Source of the DNA: Iodidimonas sp. SYSU 1G8
GTDB lineage: Bacteria > Pseudomonadota > Alphaproteobacteria > SMXS01
NCBI RefSeq assembly: GCF_039655775.1
Contig: NZ_JBBYXJ010000001.1
Location: 2,007,501-2,071,500, forward strand
Direction of reading: 5' to 3'
DNA: 64,000 nucleotides
Shown here: one piece after another, positions 9,795-29,301 of the stretch
Layout of the letters: every line of letters starts with the position of its first letter
Position numbering within the stretch: the stretch's first letter is position 1
The notes under the pieces: model-generated
Seen by the model: the letters and a program-made list of their open reading frames with translations, nothing else
Databases searched by the model: none
What the model was told of the DNA's origin: nothing
Position numbers and translations under genes: made by a program

Positions 9795-9798
9795 GTCC

Positions 9799-10110: not shown

Positions 10111-10118
10111 GGCGGGCC

Positions 10119-10421
10119 TCAGCGGATCGGGTGATGGACGGTCACCAGCTTGGTGCCGTCCGGAAAGGTGGCTTCCACCTGCACGTCGTGGATCATCTCC
10201 GGGATGCCCTCCATCACCTGATCGCGGGTCAGGATGGTCGCGCCGCTGGCCATCAGCTCGGCGACGCTACGGCCGTCGCGCGCGCCTTCCATCACCGCAT
10301 TGGTGATGATGGCGATACTTTCCGGATAGTTCAGCTTCACGCCGCGCGCCAGCCGGTCGCGGGCGACCATGGCGGCAACGGCGATCATGAGCTTGTCCCG
10401 CTCGCGGGGTGTCAGGTTCAT
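10119..10421 (-). CDS. ureA: Urease subunit gamma UreA
   Basis: A 100-residue urease subunit with the conserved [11 protein letters not shown] start, [11 protein letters not shown], and the C-terminal [14 protein letters not shown]. The length is standard for separate UreA subunits (not an A-B fusion as in Helicobacter). It lies 19 bp downstream of ureD. Confidence 0.97.
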
Positions 10422-10440
10422 GGATCCTCCCGAGTCAGCA

Positions 10441-11977: not shown

Positions 11978-11979
11978 GA

Positions 11980-12759
11980 CTAGCGTCCCAGATAGACGTC
12001 GATGACCTGCTGGTCGTTGCGGACGAAATCGAGCGGGCCTTCGGCCAGCACCGATCCTTCATGCAGCACCGTCACCTTCACCCCCAGCGCCTCGACGAAC
12101 ACCATGTCGTGTTCGACGACCATGACCGACCGGGTCCTGGCGATCTCGCGCAGCAAAGTGGCGGTCTGCTCGGTTTCGGCGTCGGTCATGCCGGCCACCG
12201 GTTCGTCGACCAGCAGCAGGGTCGGCTCCTGCATCAGCAGCATGCCGATCTCCAGCCATTGCTTCTGGCCGTGCGACAGCGCGCCGGCCAGCTCGGCGCG
12301 GCGGTCGAGCAGGTCCACCGTGCGCAGCATCTCGTCGATCCGGTCGCGCTGTTCCGGCGAGGTGCGCGCGAACAGGGTGGCGAACGGACCGCGCTTGGCC
12401 TTCATGGCCAACTCCAGATTGTCCCAGACCGTGTGACTCTCGAACACGGAGGGCTTCTGGAACTTGCGGCCGATGCCGAGATTGGCGATCTGCGCCTCGT
12501 CCAGCCGGGTCAGGTCGATGTCGCCGTGGAACGCGACCTCGCCGCTGTCGGGCCGCGTCTTGCCGGTGATCACGTCCATCATGGTGGTCTTGCCCGCGCC
12601 GTTGGGACCGATCACCGCGCGCATTTCGCCCGCGTCGATCACCATGCTGAGATTGTTCAGCGCCTTGAAGCCGTCGAAGCTGACCGACACGCCGTTCATG
12701 TAGAGCGCCGGCTTGGCCGCCTCGATGGCGTCGATGACGTCTTCCACCTCCTCGCTCAT
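11980..12759 (-). CDS. urtD: Urea ABC transporter ATP-binding protein UrtD
   Basis: A 259-residue LivG-type ATPase with Walker A GPNGAGKTT, signature ALSHGQKQWLEIGMLL (the SHGQKQ form typical of UrtD), Walker B LLLVDEPVAGM and H-loop VVEHDMVFV. An N-terminal acidic extension of about 18 residues precedes the domain. The start overlaps the urtC stop codon by 4 bp (ATGA), indicating coupling. Partner of UrtE in the urea importer. Confidence 0.95.
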   Translation of the reverse strand: MSEEVEDVIDAIEAAKPALYMNGVSVSFDGFKALNNLSMVIDAGEMRAVIGPNGAGKTTMMDVITGKTRPDSGEVAFHGDIDLTRLDEAQIANLGIGRKFQKPSVFESHTVWDNLELAMKAKRGPFATLFARTSPEQRDRIDEMLRTVDLLDRRAELAGALSHGQKQWLEIGMLLMQEPTLLLVDEPVAGMTDAETEQTATLLREIARTRSVMVVEHDMVFVEALGVKVTVLHEGSVLAEGPLDFVRNDQQVIDVYLGR

Positions 12760-13925
12760 GGCTGGCCCTCCAGCCTGGCGGCGGGCGGCGGATCAGGCTC
12801 CTTCACGGGCGGCCTGAGGCGCGACAGGATCGCCGCGCCGCCCTTACCGAGACCGCCGACCACGCCCTTGGGCAGAAACAGGGTGGTGAGCACGAACAGG
12901 GCGCCGAGGGCGAACAGCCACAATTCGGGAATGGCGCCGGTCAAGAACGTCTTGCCGAAATTGACCAGCACCGCGCCCAGCGCCGCGCCGTACAGCGTGC
13001 CGCGTCCGCCCAGCGCCACCCAGATCACGATCTCGATGGAATTGGCCGGCGAGAATTCGCTGGGATTGATGATGCCGACCTGCGGCACGTAGAGCGCCCC
13101 GGCGATACCCGCCATGACCGCCGAGACCACGAACACGAACAGCTTGTAGTGCTCGACCCGGTAGCCGAGGAACCGCACGCGGCTCTCGGCGTCGCGGATG
13201 CCGACCAGCACCCGGCCCAGCTTGGACGTGACGATCAGCCGGCACAGCAGGAAGGCCAGGATCAGCGCGATGCCCGTCGCCGCGAACAGCGCCGCCCGGG
13301 TGCCGTCGGCCTGCAGGTTGAAGCCGAGGATGTCCTTGAAGTCGGTCAGGCCATTATTGCCGCCGAAGCCCATGTCGTTGCGGAAAAAGGCCAGCAGCAG
13401 GGCGAAGGTCATCGCCTGGCTGATGATGGACAGATAGACGCCCGTGACTCGCGAGCGGAAGGCGAACCAGCCGAAGACGAAGGCCAGTATCCCCGGCGCC
13501 AGGATCACCATCAGCATGGCGAAGGGAAAGCTGTCGAAGCCCTGCCAGTACCAGGGCAGCTCCTGCCAGTTCAGGAACACCATGAAATCGGGCAGTTCGG
13601 GATTGGCGTACATGCCCCGGTCGCCGATCTGGCGCATCAGGTACATGCCCATGGCGTAGCCGCCCAGGGCAAAGAACGCGCCATGCCCCAGGCTGAGAAT
13701 GCCGCAAAAGCCCCAGATCAGGTCGACGGACAGGGCCAGGATGGCGAAGGACAGGTACTTGCCGAGCAGGCTGACCACATAGGTCGGCACATGGAAGAAC
13801 GAGTCCGGCGGCGTCAGCAGATTGAGCAGCGGCACCAGGATGGTCGCCGCGAGCACGATGCCGAGGAAGATGCGGCTCGGCCTGTCGAGCTGCATCAGGC
13901 GGGTGGTGAAAGGTCCGGCGGTCAT
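12756..13925 (-). CDS. urtC: Urea ABC transporter permease UrtC
   Basis: A 389-residue LivM-type inner-membrane permease with about ten hydrophobic helices. The motif GFCGILSLGHGAFFALGGYAM and the cytoplasmic coupling segment (residues around RLIVTSKLGRVLVGIRDAESR) are standard for branched-chain/urea permeases. The C-terminus is a short proline-rich cytoplasmic tail. It lies 10 bp after urtB and overlaps urtD by 4 bp. Confidence 0.95.
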   Translation of the reverse strand: MTAGPFTTRLMQLDRPSRIFLGIVLAATILVPLLNLLTPPDSFFHVPTYVVSLLGKYLSFAILALSVDLIWGFCGILSLGHGAFFALGGYAMGMYLMRQIGDRGMYANPELPDFMVFLNWQELPWYWQGFDSFPFAMLMVILAPGILAFVFGWFAFRSRVTGVYLSIISQAMTFALLLAFFRNDMGFGGNNGLTDFKDILGFNLQADGTRAALFAATGIALILAFLLCRLIVTSKLGRVLVGIRDAESRVRFLGYRVEHYKLFVFVVSAVMAGIAGALYVPQVGIINPSEFSPANSIEIVIWVALGGRGTLYGAALGAVLVNFGKTFLTGAIPELWLFALGALFVLTTLFLPKGVVGGLGKGGAAILSRLRPPVKEPDPPPAARLEGQP

Positions 13926-13935
13926 CGGCCGTCTC

Positions 13936-15549
13936 CTAATTGTCGACCGCGCGGCCGCGCTGGGCGAAAAGCCCGCGCGGACGGCGCTGGATGAACAGGA
14001 TCACCGCGATCAGGATGAAGATCTTCGCCAGCACCGCGCCCGCGATCGGCTCCATGAACTTGTTGGCGATGCCCAGCGAGAGCGCGCCGACCAGCGTGCC
14101 CCACAGATTGCCGACGCCGCCGAACACGACCACGAGGAACGAATCGATGATGAAGGTCTGACCCAGATTGGGGCTGACATTGCTGATCTGGCTGAGCGCC
14201 ACGCCGGCGATGCCCGCCACGCCCGAGCCGAGGCCGAAGGTCATGGCATCGACCCAGTTGGAGCGGATGCCGACCGAATTGGCCATGCGCCGGTTCTGGG
14301 TCACGGCGCGCATCTGCAGTCCGAAGGTGCTCTTCTTGATGACCACCGTGAGCACCGCGAAGACCACCATGGCGAAGACGACGATCCAGATCCGGTTCAG
14401 CGTCAGCGGCAGCCCGGCGGTGATCTCCACCGCGCCGCTCATCCAGGTCGGCGCGCCCACTTCCACGTTCGACGGGCCGAAAATGGTGCGGATGGTCTGT
14501 TGCAGGATCAGGCTGATGCCCCAGGTCGCCAGCAGCGTCTCGAGCGGGCGGCCATAGAGAAACCGGATCACGCCGCGCTCGATGGCGACGCCGACGGCGC
14601 CGGCGACGAGGAAGGCGGCGGGCAGCGCCACCACCAGCGAATAGTCGAAGGCGCCGGGGAAGTGGGCACGAAAGATCTGCTGCACCACGAAGGTCGTGTA
14701 GGCGCCGAGCATGACCAGTTCGCCATGGGCCATGTTGATGACGCCCATGACGCCGAAGGTGATGGCGAGGCCGATCGCCGCCAGCAGCAGCACCGAGCCC
14801 AGCGAGATGCCGTGCCAGACATTCTCGACCATGCCCAGAAGATCGAGCCTCGCTTCCAGCTTCTGGCGCGCCTCGAACGCCGCCGCCTTGAGCGCGCCTT
14901 CCGACTCGCCCTCGATCTGGGTCAAAAGGGTGAGCGCGTCGCGATTGCCGCGCTCGCGCACCAGCTCGACGGCCTTGATCTTCTCCTCGTCGGCGGCATC
15001 GCTCACCAGGGTCGAGGCGGCCTGCGCCTGCAGCAGCGCCCGTTTGACGGCGCCATCCTCTTCCTTGGCGATGGCCTCGGCCAGCAGCTCGGCCATCTCC
15101 GGATCGCGGCTCTTGAACACGCTGTCGGCGGCCTCGATGCGGATCGAGGCGCTCTTGCTGAACAGGGTGAGCGAGCCGATCGCCGACCGCAGCGCCCGGC
15201 GCACGCGGTTGTTGAGCTTCACCTTCTCCAGCGCATAGGGCTCGAACGTGCCGGCGGCTTCGCCGGTGGCCGCGTCGACGGCCTCCAGTGCCTCGCCGTC
15301 GCCGGCGGCGATGACGACGCGGCTGTCCTCCGTGACCACCTGAAGCGTGCCGGCCTCGAGAGCACGGAGAATGATGACCGCCCGCTCGTCGCGGGTGGCG
15401 GCCACGGCGCCGATCGCGTCGACCGTATCGCCATAGCCGCCGGCGGCGAAACCGCTGACCGCCGAGGCCAGATCACCCTCCTGGGCTCGGGCGGGATCGC
15501 CCCGGCCGCACACGGCCAGCAGGGCGAGGAGACAGATCAGAAATCGCAT
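13936..15549 (-). CDS. urtB: Urea ABC transporter permease UrtB, long form
   Basis: A 537-residue protein with a signal peptide (ending about PARAQ), an N-terminal extension of about 210 residues rich in Ala, Glu and Arg predicted to be extracytoplasmic and helical, and a C-terminal LivH-type permease with MGVINMAHGELVMLGAY and QNRRMANSVGI. The long N-terminal extension is characteristic of true UrtB proteins and is absent from the second transporter here (23186-24112). It starts 173 bp after urtA, a gap containing a stem-loop and a shared dyad motif. Confidence 0.94.
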   Translation of the reverse strand: MRFLICLLALLAVCGRGDPARAQEGDLASAVSGFAAGGYGDTVDAIGAVAATRDERAVIILRALEAGTLQVVTEDSRVVIAAGDGEALEAVDAATGEAAGTFEPYALEKVKLNNRVRRALRSAIGSLTLFSKSASIRIEAADSVFKSRDPEMAELLAEAIAKEEDGAVKRALLQAQAASTLVSDAADEEKIKAVELVRERGNRDALTLLTQIEGESEGALKAAAFEARQKLEARLDLLGMVENVWHGISLGSVLLLAAIGLAITFGVMGVINMAHGELVMLGAYTTFVVQQIFRAHFPGAFDYSLVVALPAAFLVAGAVGVAIERGVIRFLYGRPLETLLATWGISLILQQTIRTIFGPSNVEVGAPTWMSGAVEITAGLPLTLNRIWIVVFAMVVFAVLTVVIKKSTFGLQMRAVTQNRRMANSVGIRSNWVDAMTFGLGSGVAGIAGVALSQISNVSPNLGQTFIIDSFLVVVFGGVGNLWGTLVGALSLGIANKFMEPIAGAVLAKIFILIAVILFIQRRPRGLFAQRGRAVDN

Positions 15550-15613
15550 GGGCGACGACTCCCCCTAATGTCTTTCGAGTGTAACGCGGCTTGTTTGCGT
15601 TGCAGCATTTTTC

Positions 15614-15629
15614 TTGTTGCGCTGCACAA
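15614..15629. promoter_or_regulatory. Shared TGC-dyad motif upstream of urtB
   Basis: TTGTTGCGCTGCACAA, matching the consensus TTGNTGCRYYGCACAA found at three other sites of this locus (18337, 25586, 25861). It lies 65 bp upstream of the urtB start. A degenerate second copy (TTGCGTTGCAGCA) lies about 5 bp away toward urtB. The motif is nearly a dyad (TTG-TGC / GCA-CAA) and resembles TGC-rich operators such as those reported for PhaR, but the binding protein is not known. Confidence 0.5.
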
Positions 15630-15655
15630 TAATTCTCGGCCCGCCGGGACGGGAA

Positions 15656-15688
15656 CCAGGCGGCGGTTCCTGCGAACGCGCCGCCTGG
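15656..15688 (-). terminator. Stem-loop between urtA and urtB (attenuator or mRNA-stabilising)
   Basis: CCAGGCGGCG (15656-15665) pairs perfectly with CGCCGCCTGG (15679-15688), and the stem extends through GTTC/GAAC with one bulged base around the loop CTGC. It begins 34 bp past the urtA stop codon. No T-run follows on the minus strand, so full Rho-independent termination is doubtful; partial attenuation or 3'-end protection would keep the binding protein more abundant than the membrane components. Confidence 0.55.
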
Positions 15689-15722
15689 CGAAACGCCCTG
15701 GCGATGAGAAGCGGTCAGCGTC

Positions 15723-17051
15723 CTACTTGGACTTGCCGCCGCACTTGCCGGTCTTGACGTTGTAGTTGCCGCAATTGAGCGGCTTGCGCCAATCCGAGAT
15801 CAGGTCCTTGGAGTCGGGCAGGAAATCCGACCATTCGTCACCCACGATCAGGCCCGGCGTCTTCAGCACGGTCTCGAACTGACCGTCGGCCTGGATCTCG
15901 CCGATCAGGACCGGCTTGGTGATGTGATGGTTCGGCATCATGGCGGAATAGCCGCCGGTCAGGTTCGGCACCGACACGCCGATCAGGGCGTCGATGACCT
16001 TGTCCGGATCGGTGGACCCCGCCTTCTCGACCGCCTTCACCCACATGTTGAAGCCGATGAAATGGGCTTCCATGGGATCGTTGGTCACGCGCTTGGGGTT
16101 CTTGATATAGGCCTGCCACTTCTTGATGAAGTCGGCATTGGCCTTGTTGTTCTCTGACATGAAGTAGTTCCATGCCGCGAGGTGGCCGACCAGCGGCTTG
16201 GTGTCGATGCCCGCCAGTTCTTCCTCGCCGACCGAGAACGCGACGACCGGGATGTCTTCGGCGGAGATGCCCTGGTTGGCCAGTTCCTTGTAGAACGGCA
16301 CGTTGGCGTCGCCGTTGATGGTCGAGACCACCGCCGTCTTCTTGCCGGCCGAGCCGAACTTCTTCACGTCCGCCACGATCGACTGCCAGTCGGCATGACC
16401 GAACGGCGTGTAGTTGATCATGATGTCCTCGGCCTTGACGCCCTTGGACTTCAGATAGGTCTCGAGGATCTTGTTGGTCGTGCGCGGATAGACGTAGTCG
16501 GTGCCGGCCAGCACCCAGCGCTTCACGCCTTCTTCCTTCATCAGGTAGTCGACGGCCGGGATCGCCTGCTGGTTCGGCGCGGCGCCGGTGTAGAACACGT
16601 TGCGCGAGGACTCCTCGCCTTCGTACTGCACCGGATAGAACAGGATGCCGTTCAGCTCCTCGAACACGGGAAGCACCGATTTACGCGATACGGAGGTCCA
16701 GCAACCGAACACCGCCGCCACCTTCTGCTGGGCCAGCAGTTCGCGGGCCTTTTCCGCGAACAAAGGCCAGTCGGACGCGGGGTCGACGACCACCGCTTCC
16801 AGCTTCTTGCCGAGCAGACCGCCCTTCTTGTTCTGCTCCTCGATCAGCATGAGCATGACGTCCTTGAGCGTCGTCTCGCTGATCGCCATGGTACCCGACA
16901 GCGAGTGCAGGATACCGACCTTGATGGTCTCGGCCGCATGGGCGGCGGTCGAGCCGAGGACGGTGGCGGCGATCACTCCCGCCGCCAGGAGGGCCTTGGC
17001 CGGCTTCGCCGCCGACCTGAGCCCCTGGGTGAAGACATGATTGGTGAGCAT
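15723..17051 (-). CDS. urtA: Urea ABC transporter substrate-binding protein UrtA
   Basis: A 442-residue periplasmic binding protein of the branched-chain amino acid/urea class. It has a signal peptide ending near AHAAE, then VGILHSLSGTMAISE, FGCWTSVSRKSVLPVFEE and the TDYVYPRTTNKI segment, all strongly characteristic of UrtA. The C-terminus has two cysteines (CGNYNVKTGKC) that may form a disulfide. The start at 17051 follows GGGAGG. It lies 30 bp after the porin gene, too short for a separate promoter, so porin and urtA share a message. Confidence 0.95.
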   Translation of the reverse strand: MLTNHVFTQGLRSAAKPAKALLAAGVIAATVLGSTAAHAAETIKVGILHSLSGTMAISETTLKDVMLMLIEEQNKKGGLLGKKLEAVVVDPASDWPLFAEKARELLAQQKVAAVFGCWTSVSRKSVLPVFEELNGILFYPVQYEGEESSRNVFYTGAAPNQQAIPAVDYLMKEEGVKRWVLAGTDYVYPRTTNKILETYLKSKGVKAEDIMINYTPFGHADWQSIVADVKKFGSAGKKTAVVSTINGDANVPFYKELANQGISAEDIPVVAFSVGEEELAGIDTKPLVGHLAAWNYFMSENNKANADFIKKWQAYIKNPKRVTNDPMEAHFIGFNMWVKAVEKAGSTDPDKVIDALIGVSVPNLTGGYSAMMPNHHITKPVLIGEIQADGQFETVLKTPGLIVGDEWSDFLPDSKDLISDWRKPLNCGNYNVKTGKCGGKSK

Positions 17052-17081
17052 TGCTAAGACCTCCCTTGTCAATGCAGGTTG

Positions 17082-18212
17082 TTAAATCTGGAGCTGGACG
17101 CCGACCACGATGGAGTCGATGGACGGACCGATCTTGCGGTCCTCGTGGCCGTACATGATCGACAGGCGGGCGTTGTGACCGTCGATGATGTAGTTGAGAC
17201 CGCCATCCCATTTCTTGCTGTCGGGAATGGCGTCGTCCCGATCGAGCTGCTGATAGCGGATGACCGGCTGGAACTGGCCGAAGCCGATCTTGCCGGGGAA
17301 CAGGTAGGCACCCTGGACGAAGAAGCCTTCGCCATCGATCAGCGTGGTGTCGAGACCGTCGGCGTCATAATTGTAGTAGGCGCCTTCCAAGCTGATCGCG
17401 CCGCCATTGCCGACCGGCTTCTCGAACAGCACGTCGACGCTCCAGGCGGTGTAGTCGCCCCAGAGCAGGGTATCGCCGGTGGCCTTCGCCTGGTGCATGA
17501 AGGTCAGGCCGACGGCCAGGATGTCCTTGGTGCCGTAATAGGTGCTGGAATTGTAGTAACCGGGTTCCGGATCCAGGAAGTTGTAGACCAGCCGGGCGGC
17601 GAAGAGGGGCGAATCGCTGGAATAGGACTTGGTCGGAAAGACATCGCCGGATTTGGAGCAGGAATTCTTGCCGCTGCTGCAGCCTTCGAACACGCCGACC
17701 TGCCACTTGAACTTGCCGCCGCCGGTCTGGCCCCAGATGGCGAGACCATTGTCGCGGCCGGCGAAGATGGCCGGATAGCCCTGCACCATGGGGAAGCCCC
17801 AGACATTGGCGTAATACGGGCCACTGAGGTTGGCGCGATCGGACGGCGGCAGGAAGCGGCCGGCCCAGACGTTGAAGTAATCGTTGAATTCGAACTTCAC
17901 GATGGCATCCATGATGTGGATGTCGTCGTCGCCGTCGATTTCCGTGTTGAACTCGAGCTTGATCCACTTGTGGACCTGGCCGTTCAGGTACAAACGGGCG
18001 CTGTCCAGGTCGAAATTGGTGGACCACGAACCGTCGGGCGCGCCGTCCTCGATGGCGTTGAACGAGGTGCGCACGCCGGCGCCGATGCTCACCCACTTGG
18101 TGTCATCGATTTCCATCTTGTAGCCGGCGTGGGCCGGGGCGGTGCTCACGAGCATCGCTGCCGCGCCGGCAACGGCGAGCAGACCGGTTTTCAGGGTCTT
18201 CTTGATAGGCAT
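17082..18212 (-). CDS. Outer-membrane porin of the urea/amide operon (FmdC-like by position)
   Basis: A 376-residue secreted protein with a signal peptide (KKTLKTGLLAVAGAAAML, cleavage near AHAG) and an alternating aromatic beta-strand pattern, ending in the C-terminal VVGVQLQI typical of outer-membrane barrels. Segments such as FDLDSARLYLNGQ and the internal Cys pair (EGCSSGKNSC) suggest a phosphate-selective-like or FmdC-like porin. FmdC of Methylophilus is a porin induced with amide and urea transporters; the equivalence here is inferred from location before urtA. It is the first gene of the urea operon; the start at 18212 has GGGAG upstream. Confidence 0.8.
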   Translation of the reverse strand: MPIKKTLKTGLLAVAGAAAMLVSTAPAHAGYKMEIDDTKWVSIGAGVRTSFNAIEDGAPDGSWSTNFDLDSARLYLNGQVHKWIKLEFNTEIDGDDDIHIMDAIVKFEFNDYFNVWAGRFLPPSDRANLSGPYYANVWGFPMVQGYPAIFAGRDNGLAIWGQTGGGKFKWQVGVFEGCSSGKNSCSKSGDVFPTKSYSSDSPLFAARLVYNFLDPEPGYYNSSTYYGTKDILAVGLTFMHQAKATGDTLLWGDYTAWSVDVLFEKPVGNGGAISLEGAYYNYDADGLDTTLIDGEGFFVQGAYLFPGKIGFGQFQPVIRYQQLDRDDAIPDSKKWDGGLNYIIDGHNARLSIMYGHEDRKIGPSIDSIVVGVQLQI

Positions 18213-18352: not shown

Positions 18353-18382
18353 TACGCAGAATGACGTAGGCATCGGCACTCA

Positions 18383-18837: not shown

Positions 18838-19188
18838 CTAGTGGGAAATCATCCACGGCCGGGCGGAAGGAAATGTCTTGCTGCCATCGGCGGTATAGAC
18901 GGCGCGGCTGGGCTTCTTGCTGCTGGAGCAGCAGGAACAGCCCGCCCCGTGTCCGCCGGAGCTGCGGGAGTCCTTGGTCGAGAAGTCGGGCGCGTGCGAC
19001 GCCTTCTCGTTGGTCGCATGCGCCTTGCGGGCGCCGGCGTCCATCATGGCCATCCGCGGAGCGGTCAGGATCACCCGGGGCGCGGTCGTGCCGCAGCCCG
19101 GGCAATCCGAGGGCTCGGCGCTTTCGGCCATGGGCCGGAAGCGCTCGAACGGTCCGCAATCGGGGCAGATATATCCATAAGTCGGCAT
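18838..19188 (-). CDS. fmdB: FmdB-type zinc-ribbon protein
   Basis: A 116-residue protein starting MPTYGYICPDCG, the classic FmdB/putative regulatory zinc ribbon: CPDC at residues 8-11 and CPGC about 20 residues later. The C-terminal half has a further cluster GCSCCSSS and is otherwise low complexity. FmdB in Methylophilus lies with formamidase and was proposed as a regulator; its biochemical role is unsettled. The ATG at 19188 lies 10 bp after the fmdA stop codon and has GAGGAG upstream. It is the last gene of the amide operon. Confidence 0.85.
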   Translation of the reverse strand: MPTYGYICPDCGPFERFRPMAESAEPSDCPGCGTTAPRVILTAPRMAMMDAGARKAHATNEKASHAPDFSTKDSRSSGGHGAGCSCCSSSKKPSRAVYTADGSKTFPSARPWMISH

Positions 19189-19198
19189 GAATGGCTCC

Positions 19199-20428
19199 TC
19201 AGAGGTCCGGCGCCAGCGGCACGTCGATGCCCTTGGTGTCGTAGATGGTCGGGCCATCGGCGCCCGGCTGGATCGAGAACTCGAAGATCTCGGTCGGCAG
19301 CCACAGGGTGGCGCAGGCATTGGGAATGTCCACGACGCCCGAGATGTGGCCCTGCACCGGCGCGGTGCCCAGGATCGCGTAGGCCTGGGCGCCCGAATAG
19401 CCGAACTTCTTCAGATATTCGATGGCGTTCAGACAGGCCTGGCGGTAGGCGATGTGCACGTCGAGATAATGCTGCTTGCCGCCTTCGTCGACCGAGATGC
19501 CCTCGAAGATCAGGTAGTCATTGTAGGTCGGCGTGATCGGGCTGGGCTTGAAGATCGGGTTCTTGATCCCGTATTTGGCCATGCCGCCCTTGATCAGGTT
19601 GACGCGCAGATGGATCCAGCCGGCCATCTCGATGGCGCCGCAGAAGGTAATCTCGCCGTCGCCCTGGCTGAAGTGCAGGTCGCCCATGGAGAGGCCGCCG
19701 CCATCCACATAGACCGGGAAGAACACCTTGGCACCGCGCGACAGATCCTTGATGTCGCAGTTGCCACCATGCTCGCGCGGCGGCACGGTGCGCGCGCCCT
19801 CGGCCGCGGCCGCCTTGGCCGCATCGCCGGTCATCCGGCCCATATGCGCCGTATCGGCGTAGGGCAGCGTGGCCAGCGCCGGGACCCGATCGGGTTCGGT
19901 GTTGTAGAGCGCGGCCTCGCGCGTGTTCCAGGTGTTCAGCATGTCCTTCGACGGCAGGCAGCCGATCAGGCCGGGATGCACCAGGCCGGCGAAATTGACC
20001 CCCGGAATATGCCGTGACTTGGTGAACATGCCCTGGATGTCCCAGATCGACTTCTGGGCCTCGGGGAAATGCTCGGTCAGGAAGCCGCCGCCATTCTTCT
20101 TCGAGAAGAAGCCGTTGAAGCCCCACAGGCTGTCCGAGAACGCGCCGATGTCGAGGAAATCGACCACCAGCAGATCGCCCGGCTCGGCGCCCTTGACGCC
20201 GATGGGACCGCTGAGGAAATGCACCTGCGACAGATCGACGTCGCGCACGTCCGAGGCGTCGTCATTGTTCTTGATCTGGCCGCCGGTCCAGTCGACGCAT
20301 TCCACGATGAAGTCGTCGCCGGGCTTCACCCACGCGACCATGGGGATGTCGGGATGCCAGCGATTGTGAATCATGTCGTTCTTGTAGGCGGAGTCGTTCA
20401 GATCGACCTTGATGAGCGTTTCAGTCAT
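19199..20428 (-). CDS. fmdA: Formamidase / acetamidase FmdA
   Basis: A 409-residue FmdA/AmdA-family amidase that hydrolyses formamide or other short-chain amides to ammonia and the acid. Diagnostic segments are HNRWHPDIPMVAWVKPGD, GPIGVKGAEPGDLL, the REHGGNCDIKDL motif and MGDLHFSQGDGEI. The length fits formamidases. It follows five genes of an Urt-type transporter, so that transporter probably imports short amides or urea. The start at 20428 has a purine-rich site upstream (AAGGAGCC). Confidence 0.95.
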   Translation of the reverse strand: MTETLIKVDLNDSAYKNDMIHNRWHPDIPMVAWVKPGDDFIVECVDWTGGQIKNNDDASDVRDVDLSQVHFLSGPIGVKGAEPGDLLVVDFLDIGAFSDSLWGFNGFFSKKNGGGFLTEHFPEAQKSIWDIQGMFTKSRHIPGVNFAGLVHPGLIGCLPSKDMLNTWNTREAALYNTEPDRVPALATLPYADTAHMGRMTGDAAKAAAAEGARTVPPREHGGNCDIKDLSRGAKVFFPVYVDGGGLSMGDLHFSQGDGEITFCGAIEMAGWIHLRVNLIKGGMAKYGIKNPIFKPSPITPTYNDYLIFEGISVDEGGKQHYLDVHIAYRQACLNAIEYLKKFGYSGAQAYAILGTAPVQGHISGVVDIPNACATLWLPTEIFEFSIQPGADGPTIYDTKGIDVPLAPDL

Positions 20429-20476: not shown

Positions 20477-21166
20477 TCAGACGGACAGGAAGCTGGCGAC
20501 CTTGGCTTCGTCGACTTCGCTGCGCAGGTTCTCGTGCACGATCTCGCCGTTCTCCATGACCAGCACCCGGTCGGCGATATCGAGCGCGAAGCTCAGCACC
20601 TGTTCGGAGACGATGATGGACAGGCCGCGTTCGTCCCGGATGCGTTTCAGCGTCCGGCCCATTTCCCGGATGATGGAGGGCTGGATGCCTTCGGTGGGCT
20701 CGTCGAGGAGCAGCACCTTGGGCTTGGACGCCAGCGCCCGCGCGATCGCCAGCTGCTGTTGTTGGCCGCCCGACAAATTGCCGCCGCGCCGCTTGCGCAT
20801 TTCAAGCAGCACCGGGAACATCTCGTAGATATCGCCCGGCACATGGCGCTCGCCGGTGACCGTCAGGCCCACCTCCACGTTCTCCTGCACCGTCATGGTC
20901 GAAAAGATCATGCGGCCCTGCGGCACATAGGCGATGCCGCTCGCCACCCGCTGGTGGCTCTTCATGGCGGTGATGTTCTTGTCCTCGATGCTGACCGTGC
21001 CGCTCTTGGTGGGAACGATGCCCATCAGCGACTTCATGAGCGTGGTCTTGCCCATGCCGTTGCGGCCCATGATGGCGACGATCTCGTTGGGCTGGACGGC
21101 GAAGTCGAGTCCGTGGAGCACCTCGCTCTCGCCATAGGCCACATGCAGTCCGGATACGTTGAGCAT
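20477..21166 (-). CDS. Amide/urea ABC transporter ATPase, second UrtE-type
   Basis: A 229-residue LivF/UrtE-type ATPase with Walker A GRNGMGKTT, signature NLSGGQQQQLAIARAL and Walker B LLLDEPTEGIQ. It is clearly homologous to UrtE at 11282-11977 but distinct in sequence. It is the last transporter gene before fmdA (48 bp gap) and lies 10 bp after the UrtD-type ATPase. Its partners are the two permeases at 21944-24112. Confidence 0.92.
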   Translation of the reverse strand: MLNVSGLHVAYGESEVLHGLDFAVQPNEIVAIMGRNGMGKTTLMKSLMGIVPTKSGTVSIEDKNITAMKSHQRVASGIAYVPQGRMIFSTMTVQENVEVGLTVTGERHVPGDIYEMFPVLLEMRKRRGGNLSGGQQQQLAIARALASKPKVLLLDEPTEGIQPSIIREMGRTLKRIRDERGLSIIVSEQVLSFALDIADRVLVMENGEIVHENLRSEVDEAKVASFLSV

Positions 21167-21176
21167 TGTGGTTCTC

Positions 21177-21932
21177 CTAGTGGCCCAGATAGACGTCGAT
21201 GACGTTCGGATCGGCCTGGACCTTGTCCATGGTCCCCTGGGACAGAATCTTTCCCTGGTGCAGCACGATCACCTTGTCGGCGATGTCCTCGACGAACTTC
21301 ATGTCGTGTTCGATGACGATCACCGACCGGTCCTTGATGATCCGGTTGAGCAGCTCGGCGGTCTTCTTGCGCTCGCTGACGCTCATGCCGGCGACCGGCT
21401 CGTCCAGCATCAGCAGCTCCGGGTCCTGGATCAGCAGCATGCCGATCTCCAGCCACTGCTTCTGGCCGTGGCTGAGATAGGCGGCCTTCAGGTCCAGCAG
21501 ATCCTCGAGGAAGATGGTCTCGGCGATCTCCTGCACCCGCTGGATCACCTGCTTGTCCCGCTTGAAGGCCAGCGCGCCCCAGACCGACCGGCCGCGCGGG
21601 AACGAGATTTCCAGGTTCTCGAACACCGAAAGATCCTCGTAGATGGACGGTGTCTGGAACTTGCGCCCGACACCGGCGTGCACAATCCGGTCCTCGCGCA
21701 TGGTGGTCAGTTCCTTGCCGCGGAACTTGATCGATCCGGACGTGGCCTTGGTCCGTCCGCAGATCAGGTCGAGCACGGTGGTCTTGCCCGCGCCGTTCGG
21801 GCCGATGATGACGCGGATTTCGTTCTCGTCGATGTAGAAGGACAGGTCGTCGACCGCCTTGAACCCGTCGAAGGATACGGTCAGACCCTCGACCGCGAGC
21901 AGGAAGTCCTGTTGGGTGGCTGTGGCGTTCAT
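21177..21932 (-). CDS. Amide/urea ABC transporter ATPase, second UrtD-type
   Basis: A 251-residue LivG/UrtD-type ATPase with Walker A GPNGAGKTT, signature YLSHGQKQWLEIGMLL, Walker B LLMLDEPVAGM and H-loop VIEHDMKFV. The SHGQKQ signature is shared with the urtD product at 11980-12759, showing the two operons descend from the same transporter type. It lies 11 bp after the UrtC-type permease. Confidence 0.92.
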   Translation of the reverse strand: MNATATQQDFLLAVEGLTVSFDGFKAVDDLSFYIDENEIRVIIGPNGAGKTTVLDLICGRTKATSGSIKFRGKELTTMREDRIVHAGVGRKFQTPSIYEDLSVFENLEISFPRGRSVWGALAFKRDKQVIQRVQEIAETIFLEDLLDLKAAYLSHGQKQWLEIGMLLIQDPELLMLDEPVAGMSVSERKKTAELLNRIIKDRSVIVIEHDMKFVEDIADKVIVLHQGKILSQGTMDKVQADPNVIDVYLGH

Positions 21933-21943
21933 GGCGCTTCTCC

Positions 21944-23173
21944 TTACGACGCGGGCTTGCCGACGAGGCCGTTGCCCAACAGCAGCCGGTCATCACCGGA
22001 GGCCGGGGTGGCGGCGGTCGTCGGCGCGGCCGGCGGCGGACTGGTCGTCTCGGATACGTCGGGCTTGGCCGGGACCTTGGCCTTCCGCTTGTTGAGCTTG
22101 TTCACCAGGCTGTCGTAGATGCCGGCCAGACCGTTCGGGAAGGCAAGAACGACCGCGATGAACAGGCCGCCCATGGCGAGCAGCCAGAGTTCCGGGAAGC
22201 TCTCGGACAGCGACGTCTTCGCCCAGTTCACCAGCAGGGCGCCGTAGACCGCCCCGTACAGGGACAGACGTCCGCCGACGGCACAGAAGATCACCATCTC
22301 GATCGAGGGCACGATGCCGACGAAGGACGGCGACATGAAGCCGACCTGCAGGGTGAACATGGCGCCGCCGATGGCGCACAGGGCCGCGGCGAAGCAGAAG
22401 ATGAAGATCTTGAAGTTGGCCACGTCGTAGCCGGAGAAGCGGACCCGATCTTCCTTGTCGCGCATGGCGACCAGCAGGCGACCGACCTTGGACTTGCGCA
22501 CGAACTGGCAGGCGACGAGCGCCGCCAGCAACAGGCCGGCATTGACGAAGTAGAGAATGGTCTTGGCGCTGTCGGTGCGGATGTCCCAGCCCAGCAGGGT
22601 CCGCAGGTCGGTCATGCCGTTGACGCCGCCGGTGTAGCCCTGCTGACCGATGATGAGCACGGTCAGGATGGCCGCGAAGGCCTGGGTGATGATGGCGAAA
22701 TACACGCCACCGACGCGGCGTTTGAACATGGCGGCGCCGATGATGTAGGCGAAGACGGTCGGGACGACGATGATGAGCAGCAGGGTCAGCGGGAACGAGT
22801 GGAAGGGTTCCCAGAAGCCGGGCAGCTCGGTGAGCTGATTCCAGTCCATGAAGTCGGGAATGCCGGGCGTGGACTGGATCGCGGTGTTCTCGGGGGTCGA
22901 CGCCTCGAGCTTGAGGAACATGGCCATGCAGTAGCCGCCCAGGCCGAAGAACACGCCCTGGCCCAGGCTGAGAATGCCGCCATAGCCCCAGCAGAGCACC
23001 AGGCCGATCGCCACGAAGGCATAGGTCAGGTACTTGCCGACAAGGTTGAGCCGGAAACCGTCCAGCAGCGCCGGAAAGACGAGGAGGATGAGCGCGGCCA
23101 GGATGATGAACGAGATCAGTTCCTTGCGGTCGAACAGCGCGAAACGGGACTTGATGGTCGTGACGCTTTTCAT
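21944..23173 (-). CDS. Amide/urea ABC transporter permease, second UrtC-type
   Basis: A 409-residue LivM/UrtC-type membrane permease with about ten helices. GYGGILSLGQGVFFGLGGYCM replaces the GHG of classical UrtC by GQG, and the coupling helix (KSKVGRLLVAMRDKEDRVRF) is well conserved. The last 60 residues form a Pro/Ala/Thr-rich cytoplasmic tail of low complexity. It lies 12 bp after the UrtB-type gene. Confidence 0.92.
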   Translation of the reverse strand: MKSVTTIKSRFALFDRKELISFIILAALILLVFPALLDGFRLNLVGKYLTYAFVAIGLVLCWGYGGILSLGQGVFFGLGGYCMAMFLKLEASTPENTAIQSTPGIPDFMDWNQLTELPGFWEPFHSFPLTLLLIIVVPTVFAYIIGAAMFKRRVGGVYFAIITQAFAAILTVLIIGQQGYTGGVNGMTDLRTLLGWDIRTDSAKTILYFVNAGLLLAALVACQFVRKSKVGRLLVAMRDKEDRVRFSGYDVANFKIFIFCFAAALCAIGGAMFTLQVGFMSPSFVGIVPSIEMVIFCAVGGRLSLYGAVYGALLVNWAKTSLSESFPELWLLAMGGLFIAVVLAFPNGLAGIYDSLVNKLNKRKAKVPAKPDVSETTSPPPAAPTTAATPASGDDRLLLGNGLVGKPAS

Positions 23174-23185
23174 GGATTTGCTCCC

Positions 23186-24112
23186 CTACTTGCGGACTTT
23201 GAGGGAGAACAGGCCTTGCGGGCGCAGCATCAGGATGCCGACGACCGTCAGGAGCGTGAACACCTTGGCCATGGAGCCGGACATGAAGAACTCCAGCGTC
23301 GACTGCGCCTGGCTGATGGTGAAGGCCGAGGCGATGGTGCCGAGCAGGCTGGCCGCGCCGCCGAACACCACGACGAGGAAGGTATCGACGATGTAGAGCT
23401 GGCCCGCCGTCGGCCCGGTGGAGCCGATCATGGTGAAGGCGCTGCCGGCGACGCCGGCGATGCCGCAGCCGATACCGAAGGTCAGCCGGTCGGTCCATTC
23501 GGTGTTGATGCCGACGGCGCCCGCCATGACGCGGTTCTGCATCACGGCGCGGACCTGCTTGCCCCAGGACGAGCGGTACATCATCAGGTAGACGGCGAAC
23601 GTGATCAGCAGGGTCAGGGTCATGACGAAGACGCCGTTGATCGGGACCTCGATGCTCTCGGTCAGGTTGAACGAGCCCATCAGGTACTCGGGCAGGGTCA
23701 CGCCGACCTCGCGCGCGCCGAAGGTGGAGCGATAGACCTGCTGCAGGATGAGGCTGAGGCCCCAGGTGGCCAGAAGCGTATCGAGGGGGCGCTTGTAGAG
23801 GTGTCGTATCATCGACCACTCGACCAGCATGCCCAGTCCTCCCGACACGATGAAGGCGAGGATCATGGCCACGAAAAAGTAAACCCCGAACAGGGCGGGG
23901 GCGTAGTTCTCCACGACGTGGGAACAGAGGTAGGTGACATAGGCGCCCAGGATCATGAACTCGCCATGGGCCATGTTGATGACGCCCATCTGGCCGAAGA
24001 TGATCGCGAGGCCGAGGGCCATCAGCACGAAGACCGAGAACAGGATCAGGCCGGCGAAGCCCTGCATGGCGAAGATGGAACCGAGTTCGCCCGCCGTATA
24101 GCCGTCAAACAT
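23186..24112 (-). CDS. Amide/urea ABC transporter permease, second UrtB-type (short form)
   Basis: A 308-residue LivH/UrtB-type permease with MGVINMAHGEFMILGAYVTY, TLLATWGLSLILQQVYR and QNRVMAGAVGINTEW. It lacks both the signal peptide and the roughly 210-residue extracytoplasmic N-terminal domain of UrtB at 13936-15549, which separates this system from canonical UrtB. It starts 146 bp after the binding-protein gene, a gap containing a strong stem-loop. Confidence 0.92.
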   Translation of the reverse strand: MFDGYTAGELGSIFAMQGFAGLILFSVFVLMALGLAIIFGQMGVINMAHGEFMILGAYVTYLCSHVVENYAPALFGVYFFVAMILAFIVSGGLGMLVEWSMIRHLYKRPLDTLLATWGLSLILQQVYRSTFGAREVGVTLPEYLMGSFNLTESIEVPINGVFVMTLTLLITFAVYLMMYRSSWGKQVRAVMQNRVMAGAVGINTEWTDRLTFGIGCGIAGVAGSAFTMIGSTGPTAGQLYIVDTFLVVVFGGAASLLGTIASAFTISQAQSTLEFFMSGSMAKVFTLLTVVGILMLRPQGLFSLKVRK

Positions 24113-24210
24113 CGAGGAGTCCTCCGAGGGGGAAGCACGCCGCGCGGAAAGGCGCGGTAGTCAGGGGAAAGCGGGTTGGCTGCAGCATGGGTCGGTAACC
24201 TTCGGGCCAG

Positions 24211-24240
24211 CTGCCGGGACTTCGTGGGAAGTCCCGGCAG
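24211..24240 (-). terminator. Stem-loop between the second binding-protein gene and its permease gene
   Basis: CTGCCGGGACTTC (24211-24223) pairs perfectly over 13 bp with GAAGTCCCGGCAG (24228-24240) around the loop GTGG, starting about 18 bp after the stop codon of the binding-protein gene. No T-run follows on the minus strand, so partial attenuation or mRNA protection is more likely than full termination. The position mirrors the stem-loop at 15656-15688 in the urea operon. Confidence 0.65.
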
Positions 24241-24258
24241 GGCGGCCCTAGCTAGCGA

Positions 24259-25509
24259 TTATTGGTAACCCTTGGGGAACGGATCGGGCTCGACCAGATC
24301 CTTGGTCTCGTAGACAACCTTGTACTGACCATCGAGCTGGGCATGGCCGACGCGGGTCTTGGACCACAGGTGGTGATTCTCGTGGACCTTCACGTAGCCT
24401 TCCGGCGCGGTCTTGATCTCGATGCCCGGCAGCGTCTTCTTGGTCGCGTCCACATCGAAGCTGCCGGCCTTCTCGACGGCGGCTTTCCAGATCCACGGGC
24501 CCAGATAGGCGGCCTGGGTGACGTCGCCGATGACGATGTCCTTGCCCCACATATCCTTGAAGGCCTTCACGAACGCCTTGTTGTTCGGGTTGTCCAGGCT
24601 CTGGAAGTACTTCATGACCGCATAGGCGCCGACGATGTTCTCGCCGCCGATGCCCTGGATTTCATCCTCGGTGACCGAGATGGTGAGGACAATCGGCTTT
24701 TCCTTGGTCATGTCGATGCCGGCCGCCTTCAGCTGCTTGTAGAAGGCCACGTTGGAGCCGCCGACGACGATCGCGTAGATCACGTCCGGCTTCTTCAGCT
24801 TCATCTTGTTGATGACCGAGTTGAACTGGGTGTGGCCCAGCGGATAGTAATCCTCGCCCACCACCTTCAGGCCCAGCTTCTCGATGTGCTTGCGGGCGAT
24901 CTTGTTGGAGGTGCGCGGCCAGATGTAATCGGACCCAAGCAGGTAGAAGGTCTTGGCGCCCTTGGTCTTCACCACCCAGTCGATACCGGCGATGATCTGC
25001 TGGGTCGCTTCCTGGCCGGTGTAGATGACGTTGGGCGACTGCTCCAGGCCTTCATAGAAGGTCGGGTAGTAGAGCATGCCGTTATACTGCTCGAACACCG
25101 GCAGCACGGCCTTGCGCGAGGCCGACGTCCAGCAGCCGAACACAGCGGCCACCTTGTCGTTGACCAGCAACTTCTTGGCTTTTTCGGCGAAGGTCGGCCA
25201 GTCGGACGCGCCGTCTTCCTGGATGAACTCGATCTTGCGGCCCAGCACGCCGCCCATGTCGTTGATCTGCTTGATGGCCAGCTTCTCGGCCTGCACCGAA
25301 CCGGTTTCCGAAATGGCCATGGTACCGGTGACGGAATGCAGAATGCCGACCTTCACCGTCTTGTCGGTGACGGCCAGGCCGGTCGTGTTCGCCTTGTCGG
25401 CGGCGTTCGCCGCCAGCGGCGCCAGCGCGACGGCGGCGAACAGCGCCGCTTTCGCGGTCTTGCGCAGCGCGGCGCCGAGACCTGAGGGACCTGCTCTTTC
25501 GACTGTCAT
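24259..25509 (-). CDS. Amide/urea ABC transporter substrate-binding protein
   Basis: A 416-residue periplasmic binding protein of the UrtA/FmdD class. It has a signal peptide ending near NAADK, VGILHSVTGTMAISETG, FGCWTSASRKAVLPVFEQYNGML, and GSDYIWPRTSNKI. It is a clear paralogue of UrtA at 15723-17051. Its operon contains formamidase rather than urease, so short-chain amides are the most likely ligand; urea cannot be excluded. The start at 25509 has GAGAGG upstream. First gene of its operon, about 76 bp downstream of a shared dyad motif. Confidence 0.92.
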   Translation of the reverse strand: MTVERAGPSGLGAALRKTAKAALFAAVALAPLAANAADKANTTGLAVTDKTVKVGILHSVTGTMAISETGSVQAEKLAIKQINDMGGVLGRKIEFIQEDGASDWPTFAEKAKKLLVNDKVAAVFGCWTSASRKAVLPVFEQYNGMLYYPTFYEGLEQSPNVIYTGQEATQQIIAGIDWVVKTKGAKTFYLLGSDYIWPRTSNKIARKHIEKLGLKVVGEDYYPLGHTQFNSVINKMKLKKPDVIYAIVVGGSNVAFYKQLKAAGIDMTKEKPIVLTISVTEDEIQGIGGENIVGAYAVMKYFQSLDNPNNKAFVKAFKDMWGKDIVIGDVTQAAYLGPWIWKAAVEKAGSFDVDATKKTLPGIEIKTAPEGYVKVHENHHLWSKTRVGHAQLDGQYKVVYETKDLVEPDPFPKGYQ

Positions 25510-25601: not shown

Positions 25602-25860
25602 TACGTCGATATGCGTATGGCGGTACGCGGATCGGCTGGGTAGGGTCGCGCCTGCAGGAGATCCCGAGAGGCCCGGATATCCTGCAATTATCGATATTTG
25701 GGCGCTTGATTGAGGAATAGCAGCGGCTTAGGCATCACCAGCACATGTGAGGCATGAAAAAAGTCCGTACCGAAGCGCGCCACCCGGAAGCGCCGTCAGT
25801 TGGTTGTAACCTGACGGTAATGCATTTTTGCCGCTTGGCTTTGGCTGGGAATTCCGGTCA

Positions 25861-25920: not shown

Positions 25921-28900
25921 ATGACTCCGCATCAAAGGGTCATCCGCGAAAGGCGGCAGTACAACCAATGGGTCGCGAACCAGACCCTGGAAGACTACGC
26001 CCTGCGCTTCACGGCCAACAGCGCTCGTAAATGGTCGTCGTTCCGCGTCGCCAACACGGCGCTGGGCGCGATCTCATTCCTGGCGCTCGAGGCCATCGGC
26101 GGCGCCATCACCCTCAACTACGGGTTCTCGAACGCCGCAGCCGCCATCCTGATCGTCGGCTGCCTGATCTTCGCCGCTGGCCTGCCCATCTGTTACTACG
26201 CGGCCAAGTATGGCGTCGACATCGACCTGCTGACCCGCGGCGCCGGCTTCGGTTATATCGGCTCCACCATCACCTCGCTGATCTACGCCTCGTTCACTTT
26301 CATCTTCTTCGCCCTCGAGGCGGCGATCATGGCGCTGGCGCTGCAGATGTGCTTCGGCCTGCCGCTCTGGCTCGGCTACCTCATCAGCGCGCTGATCGCG
26401 ATCCCGCTGGTGACCCACGGCATCACCACGATCAGCCGCTTCCAGATGTGGACCCAGCCCTTCTGGATCATCCTGCAGTTGCTGCCCTTCATCTTCATCG
26501 GGGCCAAGGGCCTGTTCTCGCTGGATGAGTGGATGGCCTATCCGGGCCTGCACGGCGCCCGGGACGGCTCGCTCGACCTGCTGCATTTCGGCGCCGCCTC
26601 GGCGGTGGTATTCTCCCTCATCGCCCAGATCGGCGAGCAGGTCGACTACCTCCGTTTCCTGCCGCGCACCCGCAAGGGTCGGCGATGGCAGTGGTGGGCC
26701 GCCATGGTCAGCGCCGGGCCGGGCTGGGTCGTCCCCGGCATGATCAAGCTGCTCGCCGGATCGTTTCTCGCCGTGCTGGCGCTGAACGCGGGCGTCGCCT
26801 TCGAGAGCGCCGCCGAGCCGACCCAGATGTACCTGCTGGCCTTCACCCAGGTGGTTTCTCAGCCCGACATCGCCATCGCGTTGACCGGCGCGTTCGTCAT
26901 CATCTCGCAGATGAAGATCAACGTGACCAACGCCTATGCGGGTTCCATCGCCTGGTCCAACTTCTTCTCGCGCCTCACCCATAGCCATCCCGGCCGCGTG
27001 GTCTGGCTGGTATTCAACGTCGCCATCGCCATCATCCTGATGGAGCTGGGCATCTACAAGGCGCTGGAGCACACGCTCGGCCTTTACGCCAACATCGCCG
27101 TCGCTTGGGTCGGCGCCATCGTCGCCGATCTGATCATCAACAAGCCGCTCGGCCTGTCGCCCCGGCACATCGAGTTCAAGCGGGCGCATCTCTACGACAT
27201 CAACCCCGTCGGCGTCGGCGCCATGTTCGTCGCGTCGGTGCTCTCCATCACGGCCTATGCCGACGTGTTCGGCGACGTGGCCCGCGCCATGGCGCCGTTC
27301 ATCGCGCTTGGAACCGCGCTGGTCGTCTCGCCGCTGATCGCCTTCGCCACCGGCGGCCGCTTCTACATCGCCCGCAAGCCGACGACCCCGCTCGCCGACA
27401 GCAAGCCGGAGCGCTGCTGTATCTGCGAGCACACCTTCGAGCCGGAGGACATGGCGCACTGTCCGGTCTATTCGGGTCCGATCTGCTCGCTGTGCTGCTC
27501 GCTCGATGCCCGATGCCGCGACGCCTGCAAGGTATCCGCCCGCTTTTCCGAGCAGGTGCTGCAGTTCCTCGGCTGGGCCTTCCCGCGCCAGCTGGTGGCG
27601 CGGCTCAACAGCCGGCTGGGCCAGTATCTCGGCCTCCTTTTGCTCTTCAGCCTGTTCATCGCCGCGATCCTGGCGCTGGGCTACGTGCAGATGAGCCTGA
27701 CGCCCGAGGCGCCGACGGCGATCATCGCCGACACGCTGTGGAAGGTGTTCTTCATCCTGATCATCGTCGCCGCCATCGTCGCCTGGCCGTTCGTGCTGGC
27801 CCACGAGACCAGCCGCGTCGCCCAGCAGGAAACCCAGCGCCAGACCAATATGCTGATGCGCGAGATCGACGCGCACCAGAAGACCGACAAGGCGCTGCAG
27901 AAGGCCAAGGAGACCGCCGAGGCCGCCAGCATGGCCAAAAGCAAGTACGTGGTCGGCATCAGTCACGAGCTGCGCACGCCGCTCAACGCCATTCTCGGCT
28001 ATGCCCAGCTGCTCGAGGCCGATCCCGCCATTCCCGGCCACCGCAAGCACGCTCTGAGCGTGGTCCGGCGCAGCGGCGAGCACCTGTCGGGCCTGATCGA
28101 CGGCCTGCTCGACATCTCGATGATCGAGGCCGGCCGCCTGCAGCTCTACCGCGACGAGGTGCCGATCAACGATTTCCTCGGCCAGCTCGTCGACATGTTC
28201 GCCATGCAGGCGCGCGCCAAGGGCCTCGACTTCGTGTTCGAGCCGCCCGAGAGCCTGCCGGACCTGGTCTATACAGACGAGAAGCGGCTGCGCCAGATCC
28301 TGATCAACCTGCTGTCCAACGCCATCCGCTGCACGGAACAGGGCAGCGTCATCCTGCGCATGCGCTATCGCACCCAGCTCGCCACCTTCGAGGTCGAGGA
28401 CACCGGCATCGGCATCGCCGCCGAGGATCTGGAACGCGCCTTCCGCCCGTTCGAGCGCATCGAGACGCCCGGCATGTCCAAGCGCCCCGGCACCGGCCTC
28501 GGCCTCACCATCACCAAGCTGCTGACCGAGGCGATGGGCGGCGAGATCACGGTGAAAAGCACGGTCGGCGTCGGCAGCCTGTTCCGCGTCAAGCTGATGC
28601 TCTCCACCGTGCCCCGCCCTGCCCGCCAGGTCGTCGCGCCGCGCCGCATCGGCGGCTACGAGGGCGACGCGCGCACCATCCTGGCGGTGGACGACGATCC
28701 CAACCATCTGGACCTGATCCGCGACCTGCTCGCGCCCATCGGCTTCATCGTCATCACCGCCGAGGACGGCCCGTCCTGCCTGGAAACCGCGCGCCACACC
28801 TCGCCTGACCTGATCCTGCTCGACATCTTCATGCCCGGCATGAACGGCTGGGACGTGGCGCGGCGGCTGCGCGAGGACGGCGTCAGCCGCGCGCCCATCG

Positions 28901-29301
28901 TCATGATCTCGGCCAACGCCCGCGAGGAACGGCAGAGAGAAGTTGCCGCGCCGTTCCATGAAGGGTATCTGATGAAGCCCATTCAGCTGGCCAACCTGCT
29001 CGACACCATCAAGACCCTGCTCAACCTGCGCTGGGTCTATGACGAACAGGCCAAGCCGGCCCTATCCATCATGCCGACCGACCTGCGGGCCAGCGAGATT
29101 CCGGCCAGGACGCAACTCGGCACCCTGATCCAGTTGGGACGCATCGGCCATGTACGCGGCATCCTGTCCAAGCTCGACGAGATCGAGGACGAACAGCCTC
29201 ACGCCCGGCGCGTCACCGCGCATCTGCGCGGCCTGGTCCAGGAATTCGAGCTGTCGCAATATGACGACGCCCTGAAGGTGCTGCAGAACCATGAGCATTG
29301 A
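25921..29301 (+). CDS. NCS1 permease-like hybrid sensor histidine kinase with cysteine-rich linker
   Basis: A 1126-residue membrane sensor. Residues 1 to about 490 resemble NCS1 nucleobase/allantoin permeases (NQTLEDYALRFTA at the start, then about 12 helices). Residues about 498-537 hold ten cysteines (CCIC, CPVYSGPICSLCC, CRDAC), a likely metal-binding or redox linker. Two more helices follow, then HisKA with His682 (ISHELRTPLN), HATPase motifs LINLLSNAI, DTGIGIA and GTGLGLTI, a receiver with Asp968 and Lys1019, and a helical tail of about 90 residues. By analogy with CbrA-type transporter kinases, it may sense or import a nitrogenous solute. It is divergent from the amide operon and overlaps the next gene by 11 bp. 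Start at 25921, with weak GAAGG upstream. Confidence 0.88.
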   Translation: MTPHQRVIRERRQYNQWVANQTLEDYALRFTANSARKWSSFRVANTALGAISFLALEAIGGAITLNYGFSNAAAAILIVGCLIFAAGLPICYYAAKYGVDIDLLTRGAGFGYIGSTITSLIYASFTFIFFALEAAIMALALQMCFGLPLWLGYLISALIAIPLVTHGITTISRFQMWTQPFWIILQLLPFIFIGAKGLFSLDEWMAYPGLHGARDGSLDLLHFGAASAVVFSLIAQIGEQVDYLRFLPRTRKGRRWQWWAAMVSAGPGWVVPGMIKLLAGSFLAVLALNAGVAFESAAEPTQMYLLAFTQVVSQPDIAIALTGAFVIISQMKINVTNAYAGSIAWSNFFSRLTHSHPGRVVWLVFNVAIAIILMELGIYKALEHTLGLYANIAVAWVGAIVADLIINKPLGLSPRHIEFKRAHLYDINPVGVGAMFVASVLSITAYADVFGDVARAMAPFIALGTALVVSPLIAFATGGRFYIARKPTTPLADSKPERCCICEHTFEPEDMAHCPVYSGPICSLCCSLDARCRDACKVSARFSEQVLQFLGWAFPRQLVARLNSRLGQYLGLLLLFSLFIAAILALGYVQMSLTPEAPTAIIADTLWKVFFILIIVAAIVAWPFVLAHETSRVAQQETQRQTNMLMREIDAHQKTDKALQKAKETAEAASMAKSKYVVGISHELRTPLNAILGYAQLLEADPAIPGHRKHALSVVRRSGEHLSGLIDGLLDISMIEAGRLQLYRDEVPINDFLGQLVDMFAMQARAKGLDFVFEPPESLPDLVYTDEKRLRQILINLLSNAIRCTEQGSVILRMRYRTQLATFEVEDTGIGIAAEDLERAFRPFERIETPGMSKRPGTGLGLTITKLLTEAMGGEITVKSTVGVGSLFRVKLMLSTVPRPARQVVAPRRIGGYEGDARTILAVDDDPNHLDLIRDLLAPIGFIVITAEDGPSCLETARHTSPDLILLDIFMPGMNGWDVARRLREDGVSRAPIVMISANAREERQREVAAPFHEGYLMKPIQLANLLDTIKTLLNLRWVYDEQAKPALSIMPTDLRASEIPARTQLGTLIQLGRIGHVRGILSKLDEIEDEQPHARRVTAHLRGLVQEFELSQYDDALKVLQNHEH

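Follow-up and report, generated by a model that had tools for sequence, protein, structure and literature searches.

A hybrid sensor kinase with an NCS1-derived membrane domain as a probable receptor for urea and short-chain amides in Pseudomonadota

Kinases fused to a transporter domain are already known from the SLC5/STAC type (PMC9100948) and the Amt type (PMC5764959). In the SLC5/STAC kinases CbrA, CrbS and RpuS, a LeuT-fold transporter domain is joined to the kinase, which is in some cases a hybrid kinase; the partner of RpuS is a LuxR-family regulator (PMC9100948), and CbrA has an altered Na+ site, in which Lys196 stands in the Na2 site (PMC13022988). The Amt-type ammonium sensor kinase of Kuenenia is likewise a transporter-kinase fusion for a small nitrogen compound (PMC5764959). 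An open question for such proteins is whether the transporter domain itself senses, and the answers obtained for CbrA conflict. No NCS1 counterpart was found described in the open-access literature (GrtK, PMC12918730, lay outside the domain comparison).

The sensor kinase described here resembles the SLC5/STAC kinases in its LeuT-fold domain and, like RpuS, has a LuxR-type partner, whereas its transporter domain is of the NCS1 and not the SLC5 type, an eight-cysteine module and two transmembrane (TM) helices lie between the permease and the kinase, and its probable target genes differ. It shares with the Kuenenia kinase the fusion of a transporter domain to a kinase, probably also for a small nitrogen compound, but not the Amt fold. 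The gene lies in a 64,000-nucleotide stretch of DNA from Iodidimonas sp. SYSU 1G8, which was analysed as a whole and is referred to as the window. The features concerned are as follows.

5530..11352, minus strand: urease cluster, with ureD, ureA, ureB, ureC, ureF, ureG and a HupE/UreJ-like gene (ureG, ureF, ureC and ureD found by tblastn; ureA, ureB and the HupE/UreJ-like gene named from reading the translations)
11282..17072, minus strand: urtEDCBA type 2, urea transporter (tblastn; starts approximate)
17082..18212, minus strand: porin of the ExtI/FmdC type (likely ATG at 18212, from the signal peptide and ribosome site; score below the ExtI cut-off)
18353..18368, no strand assigned: dyad TACGCAGAATGACGTA, approximately 141 bp upstream of the ATG (18212) at which the porin gene likely starts
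18838..19190, minus strand: FmdB-type zinc-ribbon protein (RPWMISH; start approximate)
19199..20428, minus strand: fmdA, formamidase (NF045496, 775.9 bits against a cut-off of 500)
20477..25509, minus strand: urtEDCBA type 1, amide/urea ABC transporter, divergent from the sensor gene
25602..25617, no strand assigned: the same dyad, TACGTCGATATGCGTA, in the gap between urtA and the sensor gene, a probable regulator site
25921..29301, plus strand: hybrid sensor kinase, intact open reading frame with its ATG start at exactly 25921, 1126 aa
29291..30208, plus strand: response regulator with a receiver and a LuxR-type (GerE) DNA-binding domain, overlapping the 3' end and stop codon of the sensor gene

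The original prediction had placed the sensor beside genes for urea/amide import and formamidase, and this is borne out, as UrtA, UrtB, UrtC, UrtD and UrtE as well as the formamidase scored above their NCBIfam cut-offs. The complete urease and the second urt cluster, at approximately 5.5–17 kb on the same strand as the amide cluster, were absent from that prediction. A urease alpha match at 9432–9785 (PF00449), together with the tblastn matches, indicates that one strand holds the urease, urea transporter, porin, formamidase and amide transporter genes, spanning approximately 20 kb and divergent from the sensor gene. On the other side, a gene for a CopA-like heavy-metal P-type ATPase (30388–32736) directly follows the response regulator gene, and a second related stretch is located at 51530–53182.

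The sensor consists, in order, of a membrane domain (approximately aa 20–485), the eight-cysteine module (499–536), two TM helices (approximately 565–630), HisKA, HATPase_c, a receiver and a C-terminal extension. Pfam matched only the kinase parts, HisKA at 673–738, HATPase_c at 785–894 and Response_reg at 920–1030, and left the membrane domain unnamed; it also gave no accepted match for the stretch between the permease and HisKA, where a STAC domain was looked for by Pfam alone. The sensor sequence had no match in the PDB. His682 and the receiver Asp968 are invariant among 132 homologues, and with HisKA, HATPase_c and the receiver they identify the protein as a hybrid histidine kinase. At least 582 relatives, from hundreds of species, were confirmed. 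Two variants of approximately 895 aa (L164:8763-11441 and L165:8790-11486), which form the deepest split in the sensor tree, have neither the receiver nor the usual adjacent regulator and adjoin a formamidase gene. Another kinase of the same family (L167:8459-10315), which adjoins a LuxR-type regulator, has lost the permease and retains little of the cysteine pattern.

Comparison of profiles and of a structure model indicates that the membrane domain is a complete LeuT-fold domain of a divergent NCS1 subfamily. The NCS1 family model PF02133 had no match in the genome to which the window belongs, nor in 20 sensor homologues at E ≤ 10. A profile of 114 sensor permeases, however, aligned by hhalign with 24 NCS1 proteins over 406 columns with a probability of 97.6% (E = 3.6e-12), which rose to 99.1% (E = 1.1e-18) for a template including CodB and the nearest standalone relative. 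This relative, which is approximately 30% identical to the sensor domain, matches PF02133 itself (E = 3.6e-9). In addition, the five best Foldseek matches of the AF2 model (pLDDT 75, pTM 0.72) were all Mhp1 or CodB, and the model superposed on CodB over 392 residues with a Z score of 31.1, compared to 24.6–27.1 for Mhp1 and 23.5 for the best other family. An SLC5 identity was rejected, because PF00474 (SSF) matched neither the sensor nor 20 homologues and the hhalign control against SSF gave a probability of 0.9%. The domain thus shares the fold and remote sequence homology with CodB, Mhp1 and MetT, but it is fused to a kinase, lies below PF02133 and, by alignment, has replaced the CodB pocket and Na2 residues. 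Because it neither matches PF02133 nor keeps the aromatic sandwich described below, we class it as a divergent NCS1-derived domain and not as a canonical NCS1 transporter. At the locus of the standalone relative (L166:8450-13482), the genes after the NCS1 permease encode a tandem CN-hydrolase, an AmiC/UrtA-like protein and AmiR, and this locus is possibly an amide transporter operon.

The substrate contacts of CodB (PMC9379551) were mapped onto the sensor by hhalign at 17–18% identity, so that the assignments below are suggestive, not proof. The aromatic substrate sandwich of CodB, Trp108 and Phe204, is conserved in NCS1 (PMC9379551) and is absent from the sensor at the aligned positions: Trp108 aligns with Phe129 (Phe in 125 of 136 homologues, Leu in the other 11), and Phe204 aligns with Leu233 (Leu in 135/135). 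Gln105 and Phe33 of CodB align with Thr126 and Ser52, respectively, and the Na2 residues Thr278 and Thr279 with Lys332 and Ile333. Among 135 sensor sequences, Lys332, Leu233, Gln236, Glu239, Gln240 and Asp242 are invariant. The position of Lys332 is reminiscent of CbrA Lys196, and the replacements as a whole would fit a non-aromatic ligand and a lack of sodium coupling, a suggestion that depends on the alignment.

The cysteine residues at 499, 502, 514, 522, 525, 526, 532 and 536 follow the pattern C-X2-C-X11-C-X7-C-X2-CC-X5-C-X3-C. Every one of the 135 homologues whose sequence covers this stretch has all eight, and good matches to the module (E < 1e-13) were confined to these kinases in 398 genomes. 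The topology, in which 12 TM helices are followed by the module, two further TM helices and the kinase, implies that the module should be cytoplasmic. It probably binds a metal. The permease and the cysteine module are more strongly conserved among the homologues than the kinase. The original prediction had described a single protein with a complete permease-like membrane domain, a cysteine-rich linker, HisKA, HATPase and receiver, and had taken CbrA-type kinases as the precedent for a transporter domain that serves as a sensor; the architecture stands in each part, and the analogy is supported.

The neighbourhood of the sensor was examined in an even sample of 398 Pseudomonadota genomes, 54 of which had a sensor match. 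The 59 fetched loci comprised 38 with the amide cluster (urt-fmdA), 17 with a urea/urease cluster, and 4 uninformative ones (two contig-end copies, the standalone permease and the permease-less kinase). All 55 informative loci, including that of the window, adjoin urea/amide genes, and the response regulator adjoins the sensor in nearly all loci. In a second collection, 74 of the best 80 matches adjoin urea/amide genes, and most of the exceptions are on short contigs; two loci with full flanks, L035 and L097, keep the kinase-regulator pair with no urea/amide genes nearby. The sensor was present in 38/38 genomes with a type-1 UrtA (approximately 69% identity or more) and in 16/358 others (Fisher p of approximately 1e-40, for genomes that are not independent). 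A genome paper (PMC13296017) had noted the kinase and a LuxR gene next to urtABCDE but gave no function for them.

The sensor tree shows a minimum of four switches between types of neighbour, an approximate count, since L107 and L155 were labelled as urease loci though they also hold type-1 urt genes and so belong to both types. Such switches favour a signal common to both clusters. The sensor adjoins urease with no urt genes nearby in L147, L158, L161 and L163, and fmdA with no urt genes in the receiver-less L164 and L165; what these settings have in common is urea and formamide.

The original prediction had also noticed a shared motif, and the dyad TACG-N8-CGTA was indeed found both in the gap between urtA and the sensor gene and before the porin. 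It emerged when words were counted without bias in the 110 gaps between urtA and the sensor gene, where the exact form occurs in 76 and a loose form in 94, compared to 1.4 in shuffles, leaving 16 gaps with no loose form. It is mostly located 62–163 bp upstream of urtA. In 40 genomes without the sensor, the region upstream of type-2 urtA has the loose form in 3/40 and the exact form in 0/40; the difference from the even sample (Fisher, 1.7e-14) is an imperfect comparison, as type-1 urtA is confined to genomes with the sensor. In sensor-bearing genomes, only 2/20 distal type-2 urtA genes have the dyad, which indicates that the regulon seldom reaches them. At L322 and L329, in two such genomes, a distal type-2 urtA has the exact form upstream and may belong to the regulon although it lies apart from the sensor gene. 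A whole-genome scan for the dyad with a leading A gave 11 matches, no excess over the 16 of a backwards control, and a scan of the window with one mismatch allowed gave 7, the chance level; with no genome-wide excess, the dyad is meaningful by position only. The dyad is probably the binding site of the LuxR-type regulator. A third exact copy in the window, at 9860–9875 inside ureB, probably occurs by chance.

A contiguous gene arrangement was seen in a beta-proteobacterial family that is probably the Methylophilaceae, because Methylotenera (L107) is sister to the family member G360 on the tree. The sensor is present in all 12 of its genomes with FmdA, and porin-fmdA-urtABCDE-ureDCFG-sensor-regulator is contiguous in 8/8 fetched genomes. 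With gene starts approximate in all eight, the dyad lies just upstream of the porin match in seven and before fmdA in the eighth, where the porin start is off the fetched stretch. The fmd genes of Methylophilus methylotrophus (porin FmdC, formamidase FmdA and the amide transporter) have the same gene content as the target cluster of the sensor, and no sensor for them was found described in the searchable literature.

Since the sensor almost always adjoins genes for the uptake and breakdown of urea and formamide, it probably detects these compounds. We consider it likely that the protein is an NCS1-fold receptor for urea, for short-chain amides such as formamide, or for both, and that it governs the import and hydrolysis of these compounds. 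Its assignment to urea and amides is very probable; that sensing takes place inside the NCS1 pocket is moderately probable, and urea itself is slightly favoured as the main ligand. In the proposed mechanism, urea or a small amide would bind the former transport pocket, and the resulting conformational change would reach the kinase through the cytoplasmic cysteine module and the pair of TM helices that follows it. The kinase would then phosphorylate the LuxR-type regulator encoded by the overlapping gene, either directly or by way of the receiver. This regulator would bind TACG-N8-CGTA upstream of urtA and the porin gene and switch on the genes for the porin, the formamidase and the urt transporters, together with those for urease where they are linked. 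The chances are about even for a broader account, in which an NCS1 fold shed its nucleobase-stacking residues and sodium ligands to become a direct urea/amide receptor with a dedicated palindromic operator before amide/urease genes, widespread in Pseudomonadota.

The same regulon could also be governed by cytoplasmic sensing, with the NCS1 domain serving only as a transporter or anchor while the cysteine module or the kinase reads an internal signal (metal, redox or nitrogen state). Truncation work suggests that signal perception by CbrA does not need its SLC5 domain (PMC8871633, PMC9100948), so that the NCS1 domain could act in transport while sensing takes place in the cytoplasm, and the full conservation of a cysteine module exclusive to this family, the requirement of urease for nickel and the existence of a relative without a permease all fit such an arrangement. 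We nevertheless regard it as unlikely, because the permease is conserved more strongly than the kinase and receiver and is kept together with the cysteine module in all relatives but one, and in this one, L167, most of the cysteine pattern has disappeared as well.

The ligands originally proposed were amides, hydantoin, allantoin or a nucleobase. Urea can be released by allantoin and purine breakdown, so the sensor might detect a nucleobase, hydantoin or allantoin and control scavenging genes for the breakdown products, urea and amides. Nitrogen heterocycles are the substrates of most bacterial NCS1 proteins that have been characterised, but MetT is an NCS1 protein able to take a linear compound (PMC13390362). 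The CodB aromatic sandwich is, by alignment, replaced in the sensor, and urea/amide genes occur at all informative loci, at which other neighbours, possible purine genes among them, were only partly annotated. Urea and short-chain amides thus fit every informative locus, whereas the neighbourhood and the replaced aromatic residues make the heterocycles very improbable. Slighter still is the chance that the kinase and regulator stand beside the operon by accident and control other genes, as the pairs in L035 and L097 might suggest; the 55/55 informative loci, the 38/38 type-1 UrtA genomes, the fact that the pair was recruited to urease clusters repeatedly and the dyad that goes with the sensor all argue against it.

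A urea/amide receptor of this kind would supply the regulator for urea and formamide use, which is relevant to fertiliser nitrogen and methylotrophy. The family is also a good test case for sensing by a transporter domain: the domain is highly conserved, the probable targets and operator have been computed, and there are only a few candidate ligands, all of them inexpensive and uncharged. Two sensors are present in each of four genomes (L137/L138, L146/L147, L148/L149 and L157/L158), one by the amide cluster and the other by urease, and such pairs would be useful for finding specificity residues.
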